From Gemmatimonadota bacterium (GTDB lineage: Bacteria; Gemmatimonadota; Gemmatimonadetes; Gemmatimonadales; Gemmatimonadaceae): a DNA stretch of 43,279 nucleotides. The position numbers and the translations under genes are program-made. The stretch is taken from assembly GCA_021299375.1 (NCBI GenBank), contig JAJTGR010000064.1, positions 1 through 43,279 of the forward strand, in the 5' to 3' direction. How positions within the stretch are numbered: position 1 is the stretch's first letter; each line of letters begins with the position of its first letter. Shown here piece after piece: positions 27,191 to 33,648 of the stretch. Under the pieces are notes generated by a model, which was given only the letters and a program-made list of their open reading frames with translations, did no database searches and was not told the DNA's origin.

Positions 27191-28174
27191 GTGCTGACCG
27201 TGGAACGGTACGAGCTGCCTGGTGTTCTCCGGCCCAGCGGGGCACCACAGTCGGTGTTGCCGATGGCCGAGTGGCGGGCCCGCGCTGCCGCGCACCTCGA
27301 GCGGGTGGAGGCGTTCACGCGCCCACGTCGGGAGCGACGGGCGCGCGGGGCGTCGCATCCGGTGTACGACTTTCTCTTCCAGTACTACAGCTATTCCGCG
27401 GGCAAGCTGGAGACGTGGCACCCCGGCCCGCACGAGTGGCTGGAAGACAGCCCCGAGGCCCGCGCGCGTTTCACCGCGCCGGCCTACGTGGCAGCCAACG
27501 GCCTGCTGGTGCGCACACCCGGCGCCATGCCTGCCGCCGAACGGGCGACTCTGGTGGATGTCCTGGGTGTACTGCGCGCGACCCACGAACGGCCGGCGCA
27601 CTTCGGGTGCTACGGCATGCACGAGTGGGCCATGGTGTACGGTGGCCACGACCTGCGCCATGCCCGGGTCGCGCCGCTACGGCTGCCGCAGCCGCAACTC
27701 GATGCGTTCGTGGAGAGTCGGCCGGTCGTGTGCACTCATTTCGACGCCTTTCGTTTCTTCGCCCCGGCCGCCAAGCCGCTGAATCGCCTGCCGCTCCGGT
27801 GGGACACGCGTCATGACACCGAGCAGCCTGGATGCATTCACGCCAACATGGACCTGTACCGGTGGGCGTACACGAGCATGCCGTGGATTGGCAGCGACCT
27901 GCTCTGGCCGTGTTTCGCGCTGGCCGTGGCGTTGCGCCTCCTCGACATGGAGGCTGGCCCCTACGACTTGCGGGCCTTCGGCGTCGAGCCCGTGCCGGTA
28001 GAGACGCCGGAGGGCCGAGCGGAGTACCAGCGGCGGCAGCGGGCATTGAGTGCGCGTGCCCAGTGGCTGCGGGGAGCGTTGATCGAGACGCTGGGGGCGG
28101 TGCTCTCGGCTGGGGCGGGGGACGGTGATGCCAGCGCGAACAGCGTCACGCCACCGCTGCCGCGAAGGCCGTGA
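27191..28174 (+). CDS. Conserved protein of unknown function
   Basis: About 327 residues. Distinct stretches are VYDFLFQYYSYSAGKLETWH, HFGCYGMHEWAMVYGG, FDAFRFFAPAAKPLN and GCIHANMDLYRWAYTSMPWI. I recall actinobacterial homologues labelled 3-methyladenine DNA glycosylase, but no glycosylase motif (HhH-GPD or AAG) is visible, so that label is not adopted. The many His/Glu/Cys in conserved-looking segments hint at a metal site. The start is probably GTG 27191 (or 27200). It overlaps the 3' end of the convergent helicase gene by 29 bp. Confidence 0.7.
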   Translation: MLTVERYELPGVLRPSGAPQSVLPMAEWRARAAAHLERVEAFTRPRRERRARGASHPVYDFLFQYYSYSAGKLETWHPGPHEWLEDSPEARARFTAPAYVAANGLLVRTPGAMPAAERATLVDVLGVLRATHERPAHFGCYGMHEWAMVYGGHDLRHARVAPLRLPQPQLDAFVESRPVVCTHFDAFRFFAPAAKPLNRLPLRWDTRHDTEQPGCIHANMDLYRWAYTSMPWIGSDLLWPCFALAVALRLLDMEAGPYDLRAFGVEPVPVETPEGRAEYQRRQRALSARAQWLRGALIETLGAVLSAGAGDGDASANSVTPPLPRRP

Positions 28175-31100
28175 ACAGATCGCCCGGCAGCGGCGTGTGC
28201 AGGCGCCAGGTAATGGCCATGGGCATCTCGCCAGCGTGAGAGACGTACGTGGCCGGTCCGAGAAAGGTGAACGCGCGCTCGGCCGCGTTCAGGCGGGCGA
28301 AGAGCCACACCTGGCTACCACGGGCCACGTGCTGCTGATACCGCTGCCCGGTGGGGCTGGCAGCGCGCGTGGTGGACTGGCTTTCCCAGTGAATCAGCTC
28401 ACGGCTGATGGCGTAGTCACGGTAGCGGGTGGTCGGAGAGAACTGCCCGTCGGTCTTGTCGAGCGTGAAGACGAACAGGTCGGCTGGCAGCTGATCGGCG
28501 TACAACACCCCCTCACGCCATGGGCGCCCCACAATATCCTGGCTCACGCCAGTGGCCACCAGTATCTCACGGCGTGTGTAACGCGCGTGCACCCGGAGCG
28601 GCACGCACGCATGGTCCGGTAGCGGCGCCGACAGGTGCCGCATGCGCGACACCAGTACGTCGCACAGCGCCGCCAGCTCGCCGCACACCGCCGGATGGGC
28701 GCGCAAGAGTGCCGCGCCATCGGCGAAGGTGGTGACATGGTGGGCGAGCGGCTCGAACAGCTGAGCCAAGAGCATGGTCGCGAGCCTGCCCTCACGACGG
28801 TCGCTGCCCATCGGCTCTGCATGTGGCGTAGCCAGCCAGCGGCGCCACATGTCCAGTCGCTCGCGGTCGTCCACATGCAACAGCCGGCCAATGGCGCGCC
28901 GCAGCACCTGCTCCATCGGCCCTGCGGCCAGCACCGGCAGTCCGGCCTGCGCGCGCAGCGCCGTCCACGAGTCGGTGGGCTGCGCGTACAATTCCTCCAG
29001 CTCCAGCCCTGTCTCCTCAAGGTATTCGCCAAGCGTGATGCCGGGGCGCTGCGCCGCAAGCACGGCCAGCTCCCGCGCCCGCTCGGCACGTCGCGAGGGG
29101 ACACTCTGGCGAATGCTCGCGAGGATGCGTTCCCGGGCCACCGGCTCGAGCTGCATCTGGCACCCGGCGGGCAGAAACGGAAAGCCGAGGTCTATCTGCT
29201 CCTGGATCTGCTTCCGTCCGCCCGGCAGGAGCCCGCCCAGCCGCCGATCGAAGCGAAACTCGCGCCGGTGCTGCCCCACGAAGTCCAGCACCGTGCACAG
29301 GCTCTTGCCGTGCGCCTTGCGCAGGCCACGGCCCAGCTGCTGCACGAACAGCAGGGCACTGTCCGTCGGGCGGAGCATGAGCAGCGTGTCCACCGACGGC
29401 ACGTCCACGCCTTCGTTGAAGAGATCGACGGAGAACACCACATTCACGGCGCCACTGGCCAGTGCGCGCAGCGCCTCTTCACGCTCGGCGGCGGGCGTGT
29501 GGCCGCTCACGGCCCGCGCGGCCACGCCATGCTGCGTGAAGATGCGCGCCATGTAGCGCGCGTGTTCGACGCTCACGCAGAAGCCGAGTGCCCGCATGGC
29601 ATTCAGCGGACCGAGGTAGTCGGCGCACTGCCGAAGGACCTGCCGCGCCCACACATCGGTACTGATGATGACCCCGGTCAGCACCGTGGTGTCGTAGCCT
29701 CGGCCGCGCGTCCACGGAATGTCCGTGAGATCGAGCGAGTCGGCGATGCCGAAGTAGGCGAATGGCACCAGCCGATGCTGGTCGATCGCGTCCCATAGCC
29801 GAAGCTCGGCGGCGATGCGGTCATCGAACCACTGCACGATGGGCAGTCCGTCGCTGCGCTCGGGGGTCGCCGTGAGTCCCACCAGCTCGCGTGGCTGCAG
29901 CCGCGCGAGCACCCGCTCATACGACGCCGCCGCCGCGTGGTGGAACTCGTCCACGATGACCACATCGAAGTGTGCCGGTTCGAGATGCTCGAGGCTGTTG
30001 GCAGCGAGTGATTGGATCGACGCGAACACATGCTCGAAGCGCAGGGGGCGCTCGCCGGACACCCACCGCTCCCCGAACGAGGGGTCCTGCAGCGCGTGCG
30101 CGAAGGTGGCCTGGGCCTGCATGAGGATCTCATCCCGGTGCGCAATGAACAGCAGTCGCGAGCGCGGCAGGGTTGTACGGAGGCGCGCATAGTCCACCGC
30201 GGCCATGACGGTCTTGCCAGTGCCGGTGGCCGACACGAGCAGGTTGCGATGATGCCCCTGGTCACGAGACAGGGCGATCTGTTCGAGCAAACGCTCCTGG
30301 AACGGCTCCAGCCGAATTTCCGTGGGTGGCAGATGCAGGCTGAAGGCGGGCCGCTCCCGGGTCATGGCGCTGTCGAAGCGAACGCGGTCGTACGGCTCGA
30401 AATCCCGCTGCTGCCAGTAGCTCTCGAACACGGCCGTCAGCTTCTCGATGACGGCACGATTGCGGGCTTCGGAGACGCGCACGTTCCACTCGAGGCCACT
30501 CACTTGCGCGCTGTGCGTGAGGTTGGACGAGCCCACGTAGGCCGTGCTGAACCCGCTGGCGCGGTGGAAGAGCCACGCCTTGGCATGCAGCCGTGTGCTG
30601 CTCGTGTCGTAGGATACGCGAATGTCGGCGCCCAGCTGCTGCAGCAGTTCCAGTGCATCAGCCTCGGTCGAGCCGGTGTATACCGTCGTAAGCACGCGCA
30701 GCGCGCGCCCTGCCTGCGTATGCTGCCGCAGAGCGTCGCGCAGCGGCCGGATGCCGGACCGGCGAATGAACGCCATCACCAGGTCGATGCGGTCGGCCGA
30801 GTGCACCTCGGCGAGCAGTTGGCGCTGCACGTTGGGCTCACCAGGGGCGTTGGTGAGCAGCGTGGTGTCGAGAAGGGGAATGAGCGGCTGGGCGATGTCT
30901 TCGCTGCGGCCATCCGGGAGCGCGGCCCTGATGGCGCACAGCAGTTCGGGTGGGTCGACTGGCGCCTCATCGGCAAATCCCGTGAGGGCGCCCTCACGGG
31001 CGAGATCGGCGATCAGGCGGCGCGTGAGCGTGGCACCGGCGCGAGCGCGTTGCTCCCGAGGGAGCGCCTCGATGGCACGTTCCACCACCCGTGCCAGGTG

Positions 31101-31238
31101 CAGCGCGAGACGATCGGCCGCGTCGGCGTCGCGGAGCGCGGCGCGGACGGCGGTGAACTGCGATTCGAGCGCCGCCAAGTCCCGATCGAGGAGGCGGGTA
31201 ACGAGGCGTTCGTGGAGGCCGCGGGGCAATGGGGTCAT
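28146..31238 (-). CDS. PLD-like nuclease / SF2 helicase / DUF3427 protein
   Basis: 1030 residues. An N-terminal helical part is followed by a phospholipase D-type (HKD) domain with the half-motif RLHAKAWLF (H218, K220) and GSSNLTHSA. The SF2 helicase has Walker A SATGTGKT (336-343), DEFH box (430-433), LTATPER (455-461), the Q-rich motif QQLGRGLRKAHG (633-644), then a C-terminal DUF3427 region (about 670-1030). Proteins of this architecture are linked to restriction or anti-phage roles; here it stands alone. ATG 31238 was chosen because the upstream extension to 31340 is a shadow-like Pro/Cys/Arg stretch. Confidence 0.88.
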   Translation of the reverse strand: MTPLPRGLHERLVTRLLDRDLAALESQFTAVRAALRDADAADRLALHLARVVERAIEALPREQRARAGATLTRRLIADLAREGALTGFADEAPVDPPELLCAIRAALPDGRSEDIAQPLIPLLDTTLLTNAPGEPNVQRQLLAEVHSADRIDLVMAFIRRSGIRPLRDALRQHTQAGRALRVLTTVYTGSTEADALELLQQLGADIRVSYDTSSTRLHAKAWLFHRASGFSTAYVGSSNLTHSAQVSGLEWNVRVSEARNRAVIEKLTAVFESYWQQRDFEPYDRVRFDSAMTRERPAFSLHLPPTEIRLEPFQERLLEQIALSRDQGHHRNLLVSATGTGKTVMAAVDYARLRTTLPRSRLLFIAHRDEILMQAQATFAHALQDPSFGERWVSGERPLRFEHVFASIQSLAANSLEHLEPAHFDVVIVDEFHHAAAASYERVLARLQPRELVGLTATPERSDGLPIVQWFDDRIAAELRLWDAIDQHRLVPFAYFGIADSLDLTDIPWTRGRGYDTTVLTGVIISTDVWARQVLRQCADYLGPLNAMRALGFCVSVEHARYMARIFTQHGVAARAVSGHTPAAEREEALRALASGAVNVVFSVDLFNEGVDVPSVDTLLMLRPTDSALLFVQQLGRGLRKAHGKSLCTVLDFVGQHRREFRFDRRLGGLLPGGRKQIQEQIDLGFPFLPAGCQMQLEPVARERILASIRQSVPSRRAERARELAVLAAQRPGITLGEYLEETGLELEELYAQPTDSWTALRAQAGLPVLAAGPMEQVLRRAIGRLLHVDDRERLDMWRRWLATPHAEPMGSDRREGRLATMLLAQLFEPLAHHVTTFADGAALLRAHPAVCGELAALCDVLVSRMRHLSAPLPDHACVPLRVHARYTRREILVATGVSQDIVGRPWREGVLYADQLPADLFVFTLDKTDGQFSPTTRYRDYAISRELIHWESQSTTRAASPTGQRYQQHVARGSQVWLFARLNAAERAFTFLGPATYVSHAGEMPMAITWRLHTPLPGDLFTAFAAAVA

Positions 31239-31584
31239 TGAGGCTGGGAAGCGCGTCGTACGTGCGGCCGTCAATCGGTGTGGCGGGACGCAATGGCATC
31301 GTACGGCTGGCGCGAAAGTATCGCCAGGGGCCGGCAGCACTCATCAGCCACGCACTGGCTCCGTCGCGCTCAATCAGGACGATGAACATGAAGACAGCCG
31401 CCCCATCGCCAGCCACCCCGAAGTCGTTCACAGCGCGACGCGCGGCCGAGGCGATGGGCGTCCACGGCCCGGCTCCACCGCTCCGCCTTCCCTGTCCACT
31501 TGGCCAGTGGTCGCGCCCGCACCATCCGGGGAGACTTCCCGCGTTGCCGATGCATGGCGCATCGGCCGGTTCCGGAGTCTCCGC
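31239..31584. other. Divergent intergenic region
   Basis: 346 bp between the helicase gene and the protease operon. It should hold both promoters, but no consensus pair stands out. GGAG at 31574-31577 is the ribosome binding site of the next gene. Plus-strand frames through it are shadow-like. Confidence 0.4.
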
Positions 31585-32556
31585 ATGTCACACAGTACCC
31601 CCAGCAGTTCCGACGCCACTGCGTCGCCGACGTTGGCCGCCGTCTCCGAGCAGCTTGCCACCACCGTCGAACAGGCGGCCCGCAGCGTGGTGGCCGTCCA
31701 CGCCCGTGATCGATTGGCCAGCACCGGGGTACACTGGCGTGATGGCCTCATTGTCACCACCGCGGCGACGGTTCGCCGTGACACCAATATCTCCGTCACC
31801 GTCCCCAGCGGCACCCGCCATGGCGCGACGCTCGTGGGGCGGGATCAGGCCTGCGACGTGGCCGTGCTGCGGCTCGAGGGGGACGTGCGCCTGCCACCCG
31901 CTGCGCTCGGCGACCCCGCGCACTTGCGACCGGGACACCTCGTGCTGGCCGTGGCGCGCCTCGACGACAGCGGGCCCCGCGTGGCGTTCGGGGCCGTGAG
32001 CAGCGTGAGCGGCGCGTGGCGCAGCTGGAAGGGCGGCGAGTACTCGCGCCTGCTGCAGTCCGGGCTCACGCTGTACCCCGGCTTCGGTGGGACACCGCTG
32101 GTGGACGCGGCCGGTCGCGTGCACGGCCTCAACTCGGGTGGGCTGAGCCGGCACTTCGCGACCACGATCCCCACCCCCGACGTGGAGCGTCTCCTCTCGC
32201 AGCTCCTGGCCACCGGCTACGTGCCGCGTGGCTGGCTCGGTGTGGCCATGCAGGCCGTGCGCTTCCCCGATGCCGACACGCGGCGCGCAATGGGGCGTGA
32301 CGGGGGGCTGCTCGTGGTGGGACTTGCCGACGGTGGACCAGCCGCCCGTAGCGGCATGCTGGTGGGCGACATCCTGCTCGCCATGGATGGTGGCGAGGTG
32401 CACGAACCGGGCGACGTGCTCGATGCGCTCGAGCGTACCGCCCCGGGGCGCACCGTGGCGTTCACCCTGCTGCGCGGTGGCACCCGCGTGACGCAGTCGG
32501 TGCTCGTGGGGGAACGGCCGCAATCCACCGGCCGCTCCCGACGGCGGTCCGCATGA
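31585..32556 (+). CDS. HtrA-like protein with inactivated protease domain plus PDZ
   Basis: 323 residues. The trypsin-fold region (about 30-215) aligns with HtrA/DegP, but catalytic His is replaced (TTAATV, T62 at the His site) and the GNSGGP loop reads PGFGGTP (Gly168 at the Ser site). Asp91 (CDVAVLRL) is kept. VPRGWLGV leads into one PDZ domain (about 216-310): DGGLLVVGLADGGPAARSGM, VGDILLAMDGGEV. There is no signal peptide or membrane helix, so it is cytoplasmic. GGAG lies 7 nt before ATG. Its stop overlaps the next gene (ATGA). A regulatory or substrate-presenting partner of the active protease downstream is likely. Confidence 0.85.
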   Translation: MSHSTPSSSDATASPTLAAVSEQLATTVEQAARSVVAVHARDRLASTGVHWRDGLIVTTAATVRRDTNISVTVPSGTRHGATLVGRDQACDVAVLRLEGDVRLPPAALGDPAHLRPGHLVLAVARLDDSGPRVAFGAVSSVSGAWRSWKGGEYSRLLQSGLTLYPGFGGTPLVDAAGRVHGLNSGGLSRHFATTIPTPDVERLLSQLLATGYVPRGWLGVAMQAVRFPDADTRRAMGRDGGLLVVGLADGGPAARSGMLVGDILLAMDGGEVHEPGDVLDALERTAPGRTVAFTLLRGGTRVTQSVLVGERPQSTGRSRRRSA

Positions 32557-33218
32557 CGGGCGGCATGACGGACCGCGTGCGCGATGGTGTGGTGCAGGTG
32601 CACGTGGCGCCCGACCCGCGTGCGCGAGGCCGTCATGCACCGCGGCGAGCGGCGGAGGCCAGCTCGCGTGGCGCGGGCGTGGTGTGGGCGCGCGACAACG
32701 GCAGCCGCTGCCTCGTGGTCTCCAACGCGCATGTGGTCACGGGCCACGCGGTCACGGTCGTGGGTATCGACGGTGTGGCGCGCGACGGCGAGCTGCTTGC
32801 ACGCGACACGGCACGCGATTTGGCCCTGCTTCGGGTGGACAACGTACCCCGCCGCTGGCAGCCCGTACCGCCGGCCACCGTTCCGCTGCGCGCGGGCAGC
32901 GTGGTGATGGCGGTGGGGCATCCACTGGGGGTGGCACACGCCATGACCAGTGGGGTGGTGCACAGCGTGGGCCCGCTGCGGGCGGCCATGCCGCTCCCTG
33001 AGACGGCGCGCACCCTGCCGTGGCTCCAGATGGACGTGCGTCTGGCACCAGGCAACTCCGGCGGGCCCGTGGTGGACGCCTGCGGCCACCTCGTGGGCGT
33101 GAGCACCATGATCGTTGGCGGGCTGGGGCTGGCCATTCCGGTGGCCGATGTCGACCGGTTCGTAATGGACGTACATGGCCCGTCGCATCTTGCCCATGGC
33201 TGGACGCGCGCGGCCTGA
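32553..33218 (+). CDS. Compact trypsin-like serine protease, intact triad
   Basis: 221 residues, HtrA-type protease core only: H60 (VVSNAHVVTGH), D89 (ARDLALLRV), S169 (APGNSGGPVVD), and the substrate-pocket strand LGLAIPVADVDRFV. No PDZ domain, no signal peptide and no membrane segment. With the preceding gene it looks like an HtrA split into an active core and a dead core plus PDZ. Its end overlaps the regulator gene by up to 44 bp. Confidence 0.88.
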   Translation: MTGGMTDRVRDGVVQVHVAPDPRARGRHAPRRAAEASSRGAGVVWARDNGSRCLVVSNAHVVTGHAVTVVGIDGVARDGELLARDTARDLALLRVDNVPRRWQPVPPATVPLRAGSVVMAVGHPLGVAHAMTSGVVHSVGPLRAAMPLPETARTLPWLQMDVRLAPGNSGGPVVDACGHLVGVSTMIVGGLGLAIPVADVDRFVMDVHGPSHLAHGWTRAA

Positions 33219-33648
33219 ACGGACCGGTGTGGCGTCGCGCCTGAGGGTGTTCGTGAACGTCGCGGACCCCATGGCCCGGCGCACGCTGCGCGACGCGCTC
33301 GCGCGTGAGACGACGCTGCGTTTCGTCGGCTCGGCCTCGGCAGCGGACATCATCGTGGAGGACGCGGGCGGGGGGACCTGGCCGGTGCTGGCGCCCGATG
33401 GCGCGAGGGAGCGCGACGCGGATACCGCCCGGGGTGAGAGCAACACCGGGGTGACGCTCACCGGGCGCGAGCAGGACGTATTGCAGGCGCTGTCGGAAGG
33501 GCTGAGCAACCGCGCGATTGCCGAGCGGTTCGGCATCTCGCGCAGCACCGTCAAGTTCCACCTGCACGCCGTGTTCGAAAAACTCGGAGTGCACGGCCGC
33601 GCAGAAGCCGTGACCGCCGGCGTACGCCGCGGCCTCGTCTTGCTGTAA
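33175..33648 (+). CDS. LuxR-type DNA-binding protein with shortened receiver-like domain
   Basis: 157 residues. The C-terminal LuxR/GerE helix-turn-helix (about 92-155) is clear: LTGREQDVLQALSEGLSNRA, IAERFGISRSTVKFHLHAVF, KLGVHGRAEAV. The N-terminal part (LRVFVNVADPMARRTLRDAL, ADIIVED) resembles the first half of a response-regulator receiver, but it is too short for the full fold and lacks a clear phospho-acceptor context. The start is uncertain: ATG 33175, ATG 33196 and GTG 33229 are in frame. It is the third gene of the protease operon and may be a substrate or target of the proteases. Confidence 0.85.
   Translation: MARRILPMAGRARPERTGVASRLRVFVNVADPMARRTLRDALARETTLRFVGSASAADIIVEDAGGGTWPVLAPDGARERDADTARGESNTGVTLTGREQDVLQALSEGLSNRAIAERFGISRSTVKFHLHAVFEKLGVHGRAEAVTAGVRRGLVLL

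Follow-up and report, generated by a model that had tools for sequence, protein, structure and literature searches.

The DNA analysed here (the window) comprises positions 1 to 43,279 of contig JAJTGR010000064.1 from a Gemmatimonadota bacterium (assembly GCA_021299375.1), and its subject is a group of three co-directional open reading frames (ORFs) at 31585–33648, which we call P1, P2 and P3 and whose current annotation amounts to S1C family protease and LuxR-type or response regulator. P1 (31585..32556, plus strand, 323 amino acids) is a catalytically dead HtrA-type protein with one PDZ domain, as judged by Pfam, alignment, AlphaFold2 and Foldseek. Its Pfam matches, Trypsin_2 (1.3e-20) and PDZ_2 (9.4e-12), describe a trypsin-like fold followed by PDZ, as in HtrA/Deg (S1C) proteins, and of the HtrA/Deg catalytic triad only D91 is kept, with A61 in the place of His and G168 in the place of Ser. 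The PDZ domain (residues ~212–310, 32218..32514, plus strand; Pfam PDZ_2 and PDZ_6 together with alignment) carries a carboxylate-loop-like motif, RGWLGV. P2 (32553..33218, plus strand, 221 amino acids; Pfam and AlphaFold2) is a trypsin-like protease with an intact triad (H60, D89 and S169), a Trypsin_2 match of 3.1e-26 and no PDZ domain found by Pfam. Single-chain AlphaFold2 models are confident, with a predicted local distance difference test score of 89.9 for P1 and 88.9 for P2, and the best Foldseek matches of the P1 model are DegQ, DegP, MucD and HtrA structures. Against TIGR02037 P1 scores 3.7e-42, yet stays under the curated cut-off, and the MamE model gives 71.5 bits for P1 and 59.3 bits for P2, far under its 800-bit cut-off, so that neither belongs to MamO/MamE by sequence. 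Matches of P1–P3 to PADLOC defence-system models are weak and partial, and an RT-Protease_XI anti-phage identity was likewise rejected: the protease part of that model alone matches P1 and P2, weakly, and the fusion of reverse transcriptase and protease is absent. By simple hydropathy (a dedicated signal-peptide predictor was not run) the N-termini of P1 and P2 orthologues have no evident hydrophobic segment of the signal or membrane kind, so the export signal or envelope location that is usual, not universal, among HtrA/Deg proteins appears not to apply to them.

P3 (33229..33648, plus strand, 139 amino acids from a GTG start; GerE match and orthologue alignment) is a LuxR/NarL-type DNA-binding protein. 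The GerE/LuxR helix–turn–helix (HTH) match (2.2e-18) is C-terminal, as in LuxR/NarL regulators, and in the clade of the window the receiver is shortened to a remnant, of ~60 residues in P3 of the window. A reading of this DNA made from its letters and ORFs alone (the sequence-only reading) had described a protease-like protein devoid of His and Ser but furnished with PDZ, an active trypsin-like core devoid of PDZ, a LuxR-type protein with a truncated receiver and, there being no signal peptide, a module acting in the cytoplasm; all of this agrees with what we find. Its statement that the three genes overlap stands for one junction. The overlap of P1 with P2 (ATGA in the window) is real, ATGA or GTGA being found in 24 of the 34 loci that carry P2, but the overlap of P2 with P3 does not hold: the starts of P3 orthologues align with GTG 33229, just past the P2 stop, whereas ATG 33175 is without orthologue support, and P3 probably begins at the former.

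In a survey of 395 Gemmatimonadota genomes the P1 family was found at 46 loci in 45 genomes, from two families of one order, and is set apart from other HtrA relatives by score (at least 333 bits vs at most 221 bits). P3 follows P1 in all 41 loci at which the contig continues (the other five stop at a contig end); it is intact in 40, and in the remaining one (L119, 4098-5066) the P3 frame is lost within the HTH, by a true frameshift or a sequencing error. Close P3 orthologues were found only together with P1 in the genomes searched, and in the genus of the window those genomes that have P1 have P3, while four that have no P1 (G020, G028, G015 and G004) have no P3 orthologue. P2 lies between P1 and P3 in 34 loci, with its triad intact in every one; it is missing from 9 of the 43 loci at which this could be assessed, and those genomes have no P2 elsewhere. 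At two loci (L134, 4932-6146, and L137, 5875-7920) P2 has ~100 additional C-terminal residues, possibly a PDZ domain of its own. A wider conserved operon was looked for and rejected: the only recurrent items were antisense frames of the module and lineage-local neighbours. Because the module is kept in dozens of genomes while the surrounding genes are not, the three-gene neighbourhood, whose wider occurrence the sequence-only reading had left to be searched for, is more than chance.

The P1 proteins fall into two groups by their catalytic residues. Eleven of the 46, the window's included, have A or G for His together with G for Ser, and 35 retain His, Asp and Ser (the last as GFSGG); the motif strings at the Ser position read GFGG or GFSGG. 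The 11 dead proteins form a single clade (support 100/98) and the outgroups, canonical HtrA proteins, are active, which indicates that the loss of catalysis in P1 is derived. In pairwise comparisons the dead protease domain has a ratio of nonsynonymous to synonymous substitution rates (dN/dS) of 0.14–0.25, below that of active P2 (0.20–0.33), and by this measure it is under purifying selection, a conserved pseudoprotease. It had been allowed beforehand that homologues might keep His and Ser and that the window copy might be a lone decay; sister-clade homologues do keep both residues, but lone decay is ruled out by the 11 loci with their common loss and by the low dN/dS.

Relatives occur outside the phylum. 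On a Paraburkholderia sprentiae plasmid a P1 that retains the triad and is 44% identical to P1 of the window is followed by P3; the corresponding pair on P. phymatum plasmid pBPHY01 (L186, 5962-7334) has broken frames in both genes and is apparently decaying, whereas the P. sprentiae copy is intact. A conjugative Bradyrhizobium plasmid encodes a P1 in which Glu replaces His and Gln replaces Ser and, overlapping it, a LuxR protein of 125 residues with a truncated receiver. When 398 Pseudomonadota genomes were searched with an alignment headed by the Bradyrhizobium P1 (a threshold of E 1e-75, used before, had been too stringent to yield any match), 16 more dead-P1 loci were recovered (Glu; Gln or Glu), with a LuxR gene next in every one. 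The LuxR gene therefore follows P1 in 17 of 17 loci of this group, which we label alphaproteobacterial after its Bradyrhizobium member. In nine of them, the Bradyrhizobium plasmid included (type A), the LuxR protein is of the truncated form and no protease gene lies within ~1.5 kb; in the other eight (type B, L202–L209) the LuxR protein is longer and an intact HtrA gene (GNSGGP) is transcribed divergently from P1, with an operator of the kind described below between the two genes that may control both. The two groups of dead P1 separate in the best tree and have different replacements (A/G and G in one, E and Q/E in the other), but a single origin of the catalytic loss was not rejected by the approximately unbiased test (p 0.27), and P1 catalysis appears to have been lost once or twice. 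No relative was found on viral contigs, and phage records queried with the Bradyrhizobium P1 gave distant, ordinary HtrA-like matches and nothing closer.

These distributions bear on the mechanism at the core of the sequence-only reading, in which the dead subunit presents substrates and the active one cleaves. In a related proposal P1 and P2 would make a mixed HtrA assembly, the PDZ domain of P1 capturing the P3 tail and P2 (or an active P1) cleaving P3 and so setting the lifetime of the regulator. Such regulated proteolysis would fit the apparent division of labour at loci where P1 is dead and P2 has no PDZ domain, the ATGA coupling, which suggests balanced synthesis of P1 and P2, and the catalytically intact P1 of the sister clade, and there is a precedent in the plant Deg protease DEG9, which controls the response regulator ARR4 (PMC6963811). 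It is not general, however: four dead-clade loci in Gemmatimonadota (L035, L113, L114 and L115) are without P2, and together with the nine type A loci this makes 13 dead-P1 loci whose operon neither contains nor adjoins an active protease gene. Cleavage by a protease of the module is thus not essential, and although this mechanism is possible in the window we consider it unlikely as the general explanation. Ordinary HtrA genes are present elsewhere in all these genomes and could supply a distant active partner. Since a dead P1 can be paired with the LuxR gene where no active protease gene is adjacent, P1 and P3 make up the invariant core of the module. On the evidence of gene content these two are an inseparable pair, P2 being frequent but dispensable.

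An alignment of the DNA upstream of P1 from four loci revealed one conserved palindrome, which in the window is an 18-bp predicted operator, CCTGTCCACTTGGCCAGT (31491..31508, no strand assigned), 76 bp before the P1 start codon. A palindromic motif search found CCTGkCCrnnyGGmCrrT before P1 in 11 of 11 loci of the dead clade (score 88.6 vs 25–35 for shuffled sequences), CTCnCCCGwwCGnCCGAT in 26 of 28 loci of the active clade (183 vs 29–37) and CCTGrCCAnnyGGCCAGT-like sites in 17 of 17 alphaproteobacterial loci (81 and 104 vs ~25), the shuffled controls being uncorrected for phylogeny. With a matrix built from the alphaproteobacterial sites alone, 31491–31508 ranks first in the 43 kb of the window, a cross-phylum prediction of the candidate operator that is independent of close relatedness. 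Of 12 alphaproteobacterial genomes (6–8 Mb), 11 have a single copy of the exact pattern and one has two, and every one of the 12 has a copy within ~110 bp upstream of the P1 match. A wider regulon in the genome of the window was sought and rejected: two further, looser sites were found, both inside long ORFs, and their number equals that obtained with the reversed-pattern control. At one locus (L034, 8647-8709) several operator-like palindromes lie in tandem upstream of P1 with 15-bp spacing. In the recognition helix of P3 an invariant H is preceded by F, Y or H where the operator is of the CTGnCC type, and mostly by T, A or S where it is of the CTCnCC type. In the window the predicted operator lies in the intergenic region that P1 shares with a divergent neighbour (28146-31340, minus strand), a PLD-nuclease/helicase/DUF3427 protein of 1064 amino acids that strongly matches the PADLOC type IV restriction model (818 bits) and is not conserved at other loci.

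We consider it very probable that P3 binds this palindrome and regulates the operon to which it belongs, having few if any further targets, and the operator evidence would by itself account for the linkage of P1 to P3. P3 might then be an autoregulator and nothing more, making no contact with P1, which would serve as a chaperone-like holder or as a tuner of P2 or another HtrA in the way that MamO serves MamE. MamO, itself a dead HtrA, promotes proteolysis that depends on MamE (PMC4794232), and intact HtrA genes do lie divergently beside P1, at the type B loci and at L142 and L143. What this explanation leaves unaccounted for is the C-terminus of P3, and we judge it improbable. All 58 complete P3 proteins (40 from Gemmatimonadota, one from Paraburkholderia and 17 alphaproteobacterial) end exactly in [ILV]-x-[LV]-COOH, next to a gene for a PDZ protein; in the window the tail is V-L-L-COOH (33637..33645, plus strand), a predicted PDZ ligand. 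Among LuxR paralogues from seven genomes only 2 of 56 end in this way (Fisher p ~1e-30, a value that ignores relatedness, the paralogues not being a phylogenetically corrected control). PDZ domains of HtrA proteins bind ligands of this form.

Judged by sequence, P3 has no phosphorylatable receiver. Even where P3 of other Gemmatimonadota loci has a full-length receiver it is without the usual phospho-acceptor Asp, and the 25 families found most often for the 15 members do not include Response_reg; the Paraburkholderia P3 retains an Asp in its receiver. Because most P3 proteins have no phosphorylation site, their signal must arrive by another route. The operator and the tail together lead us to regard P3 as an autoregulator with P1 as its partner, and we would give an even chance to the proposal that P3 activity is set by binding of its tail to the P1 PDZ domain. 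The chances are similarly balanced that the three genes form a self-contained, autoregulated cytoplasmic HtrA-type module. A different role for the tail, as a C-terminal degron for a housekeeping protease against which P1 protects or competes, while the dead domain senses a small ligand or metal, has a parallel in the metal-binding dead domain of MamO (PMC4794232), but no ligand site was identified, and we think it very improbable.

Several observations weigh against a P1-read tail and a dedicated operator. The ending of P3, G-hydrophobic-x-L, has near counterparts inside many LuxR proteins, those of the module differing in that they stop exactly there, so that folding or dimerisation may be what the tail is for. 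The covariation of helix and operator is largely by clade, L130–L132 being exceptions, and two active-clade loci (L038 and L127) have a CTG-type operator in place of the clade-2 one, while that of L136 is weak.

On the reading that we prefer, the PDZ domain of P1 would hold P3 by its C-terminal tail, clients with exposed hydrophobic C-termini would titrate P1 away, and P3 so released would adjust expression of the module through the palindrome, as a repressor or as an activator. Dead P1 would do no more than sense or hold, and cleavage would fall to P2 or another HtrA; P2 in the window would be an executor made under P3 control, and where P1 is still active it may itself degrade P3 or clients. 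That cytoplasmic proteins with exposed hydrophobic C-termini do compete for P1, so that client load frees P3 and adjusts the amounts of P1 and of any active protease, is a conjecture that we hold tentatively. The recurrence of the pair, the tail signature and the DNA switch in distant bacterial groups suggests a previously undescribed cytoplasmic protein-quality sensor circuit. It is conceivable, if still short of probable, that this is a widespread class of proteostasis sensors, with a dedicated operator across Gemmatimonadota and Alphaproteobacteria and a related pair in Betaproteobacteria, in which a (pseudo)protease-PDZ protein reads the C-terminus of a LuxR-family regulator, PDZ binding replaces phosphorylation, and the circuit was kept when catalysis was lost once or twice. 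If so, the HtrA fold would act as a non-catalytic cytoplasmic sensor for a LuxR-family regulator lacking a receiver, in a stress-type circuit, and pseudoprotease biology would extend beyond MamO.

In the literature searched (open-licence papers) we found no description of a dead-HtrA/LuxR module, in keeping with the sequence-only reading, to which no described system of this composition was known, but parts of it have parallels. The proposed control of a response regulator by a Deg/HtrA-type protein is shared with DEG9 and ARR4 of Arabidopsis, although DEG9 is an active plant protease (PMC6963811). In magnetotactic bacteria MamO is likewise a conserved dead HtrA-type protein, kept for binding and for promoting its partner protease, and is encoded with the active protease MamE (PMC4794232), which in the present module is not so at every locus. 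MamO and MamE are, however, magnetosome proteins, MamO having a transporter domain and metal binding and no known LuxR partner or common operator, whereas hydropathy gives no sign of a signal peptide or membrane segment in P1 or P2. P3 resembles NarL/FixJ-type response regulators in its GerE HTH and receiver remnant but departs from them in the missing phospho-acceptor Asp of the Gemmatimonadota proteins, in its fixed PDZ-like tail and in that no kinase was identified. In the DegS/RseA/sigma-E and AlgW/MucA systems an HtrA PDZ domain senses stress through hydrophobic C-terminal peptides; these proteases are periplasmic and cleave a membrane anti-sigma factor, whereas the module is predicted to be cytoplasmic, with the tail on the regulator itself and P1 dead. 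HspR, finally, is a MerR-type regulator. In the actinobacterial heat shock circuit that it forms with DnaK, regulator and quality-control protein share one operon with an inverted-repeat operator in front, and DnaK binds HspR in its C-terminal region (PMC10415612). Sequence evidence places an inverted-repeat operator before the P1 operon in the same way; the quality-control protein is there an Hsp70 chaperone and here an HtrA fold with PDZ, paired with a LuxR-family regulator through a putative interaction to which the tail signature points. Of documented circuits, HspR/DnaK comes nearest to the client-titration feedback proposed here.
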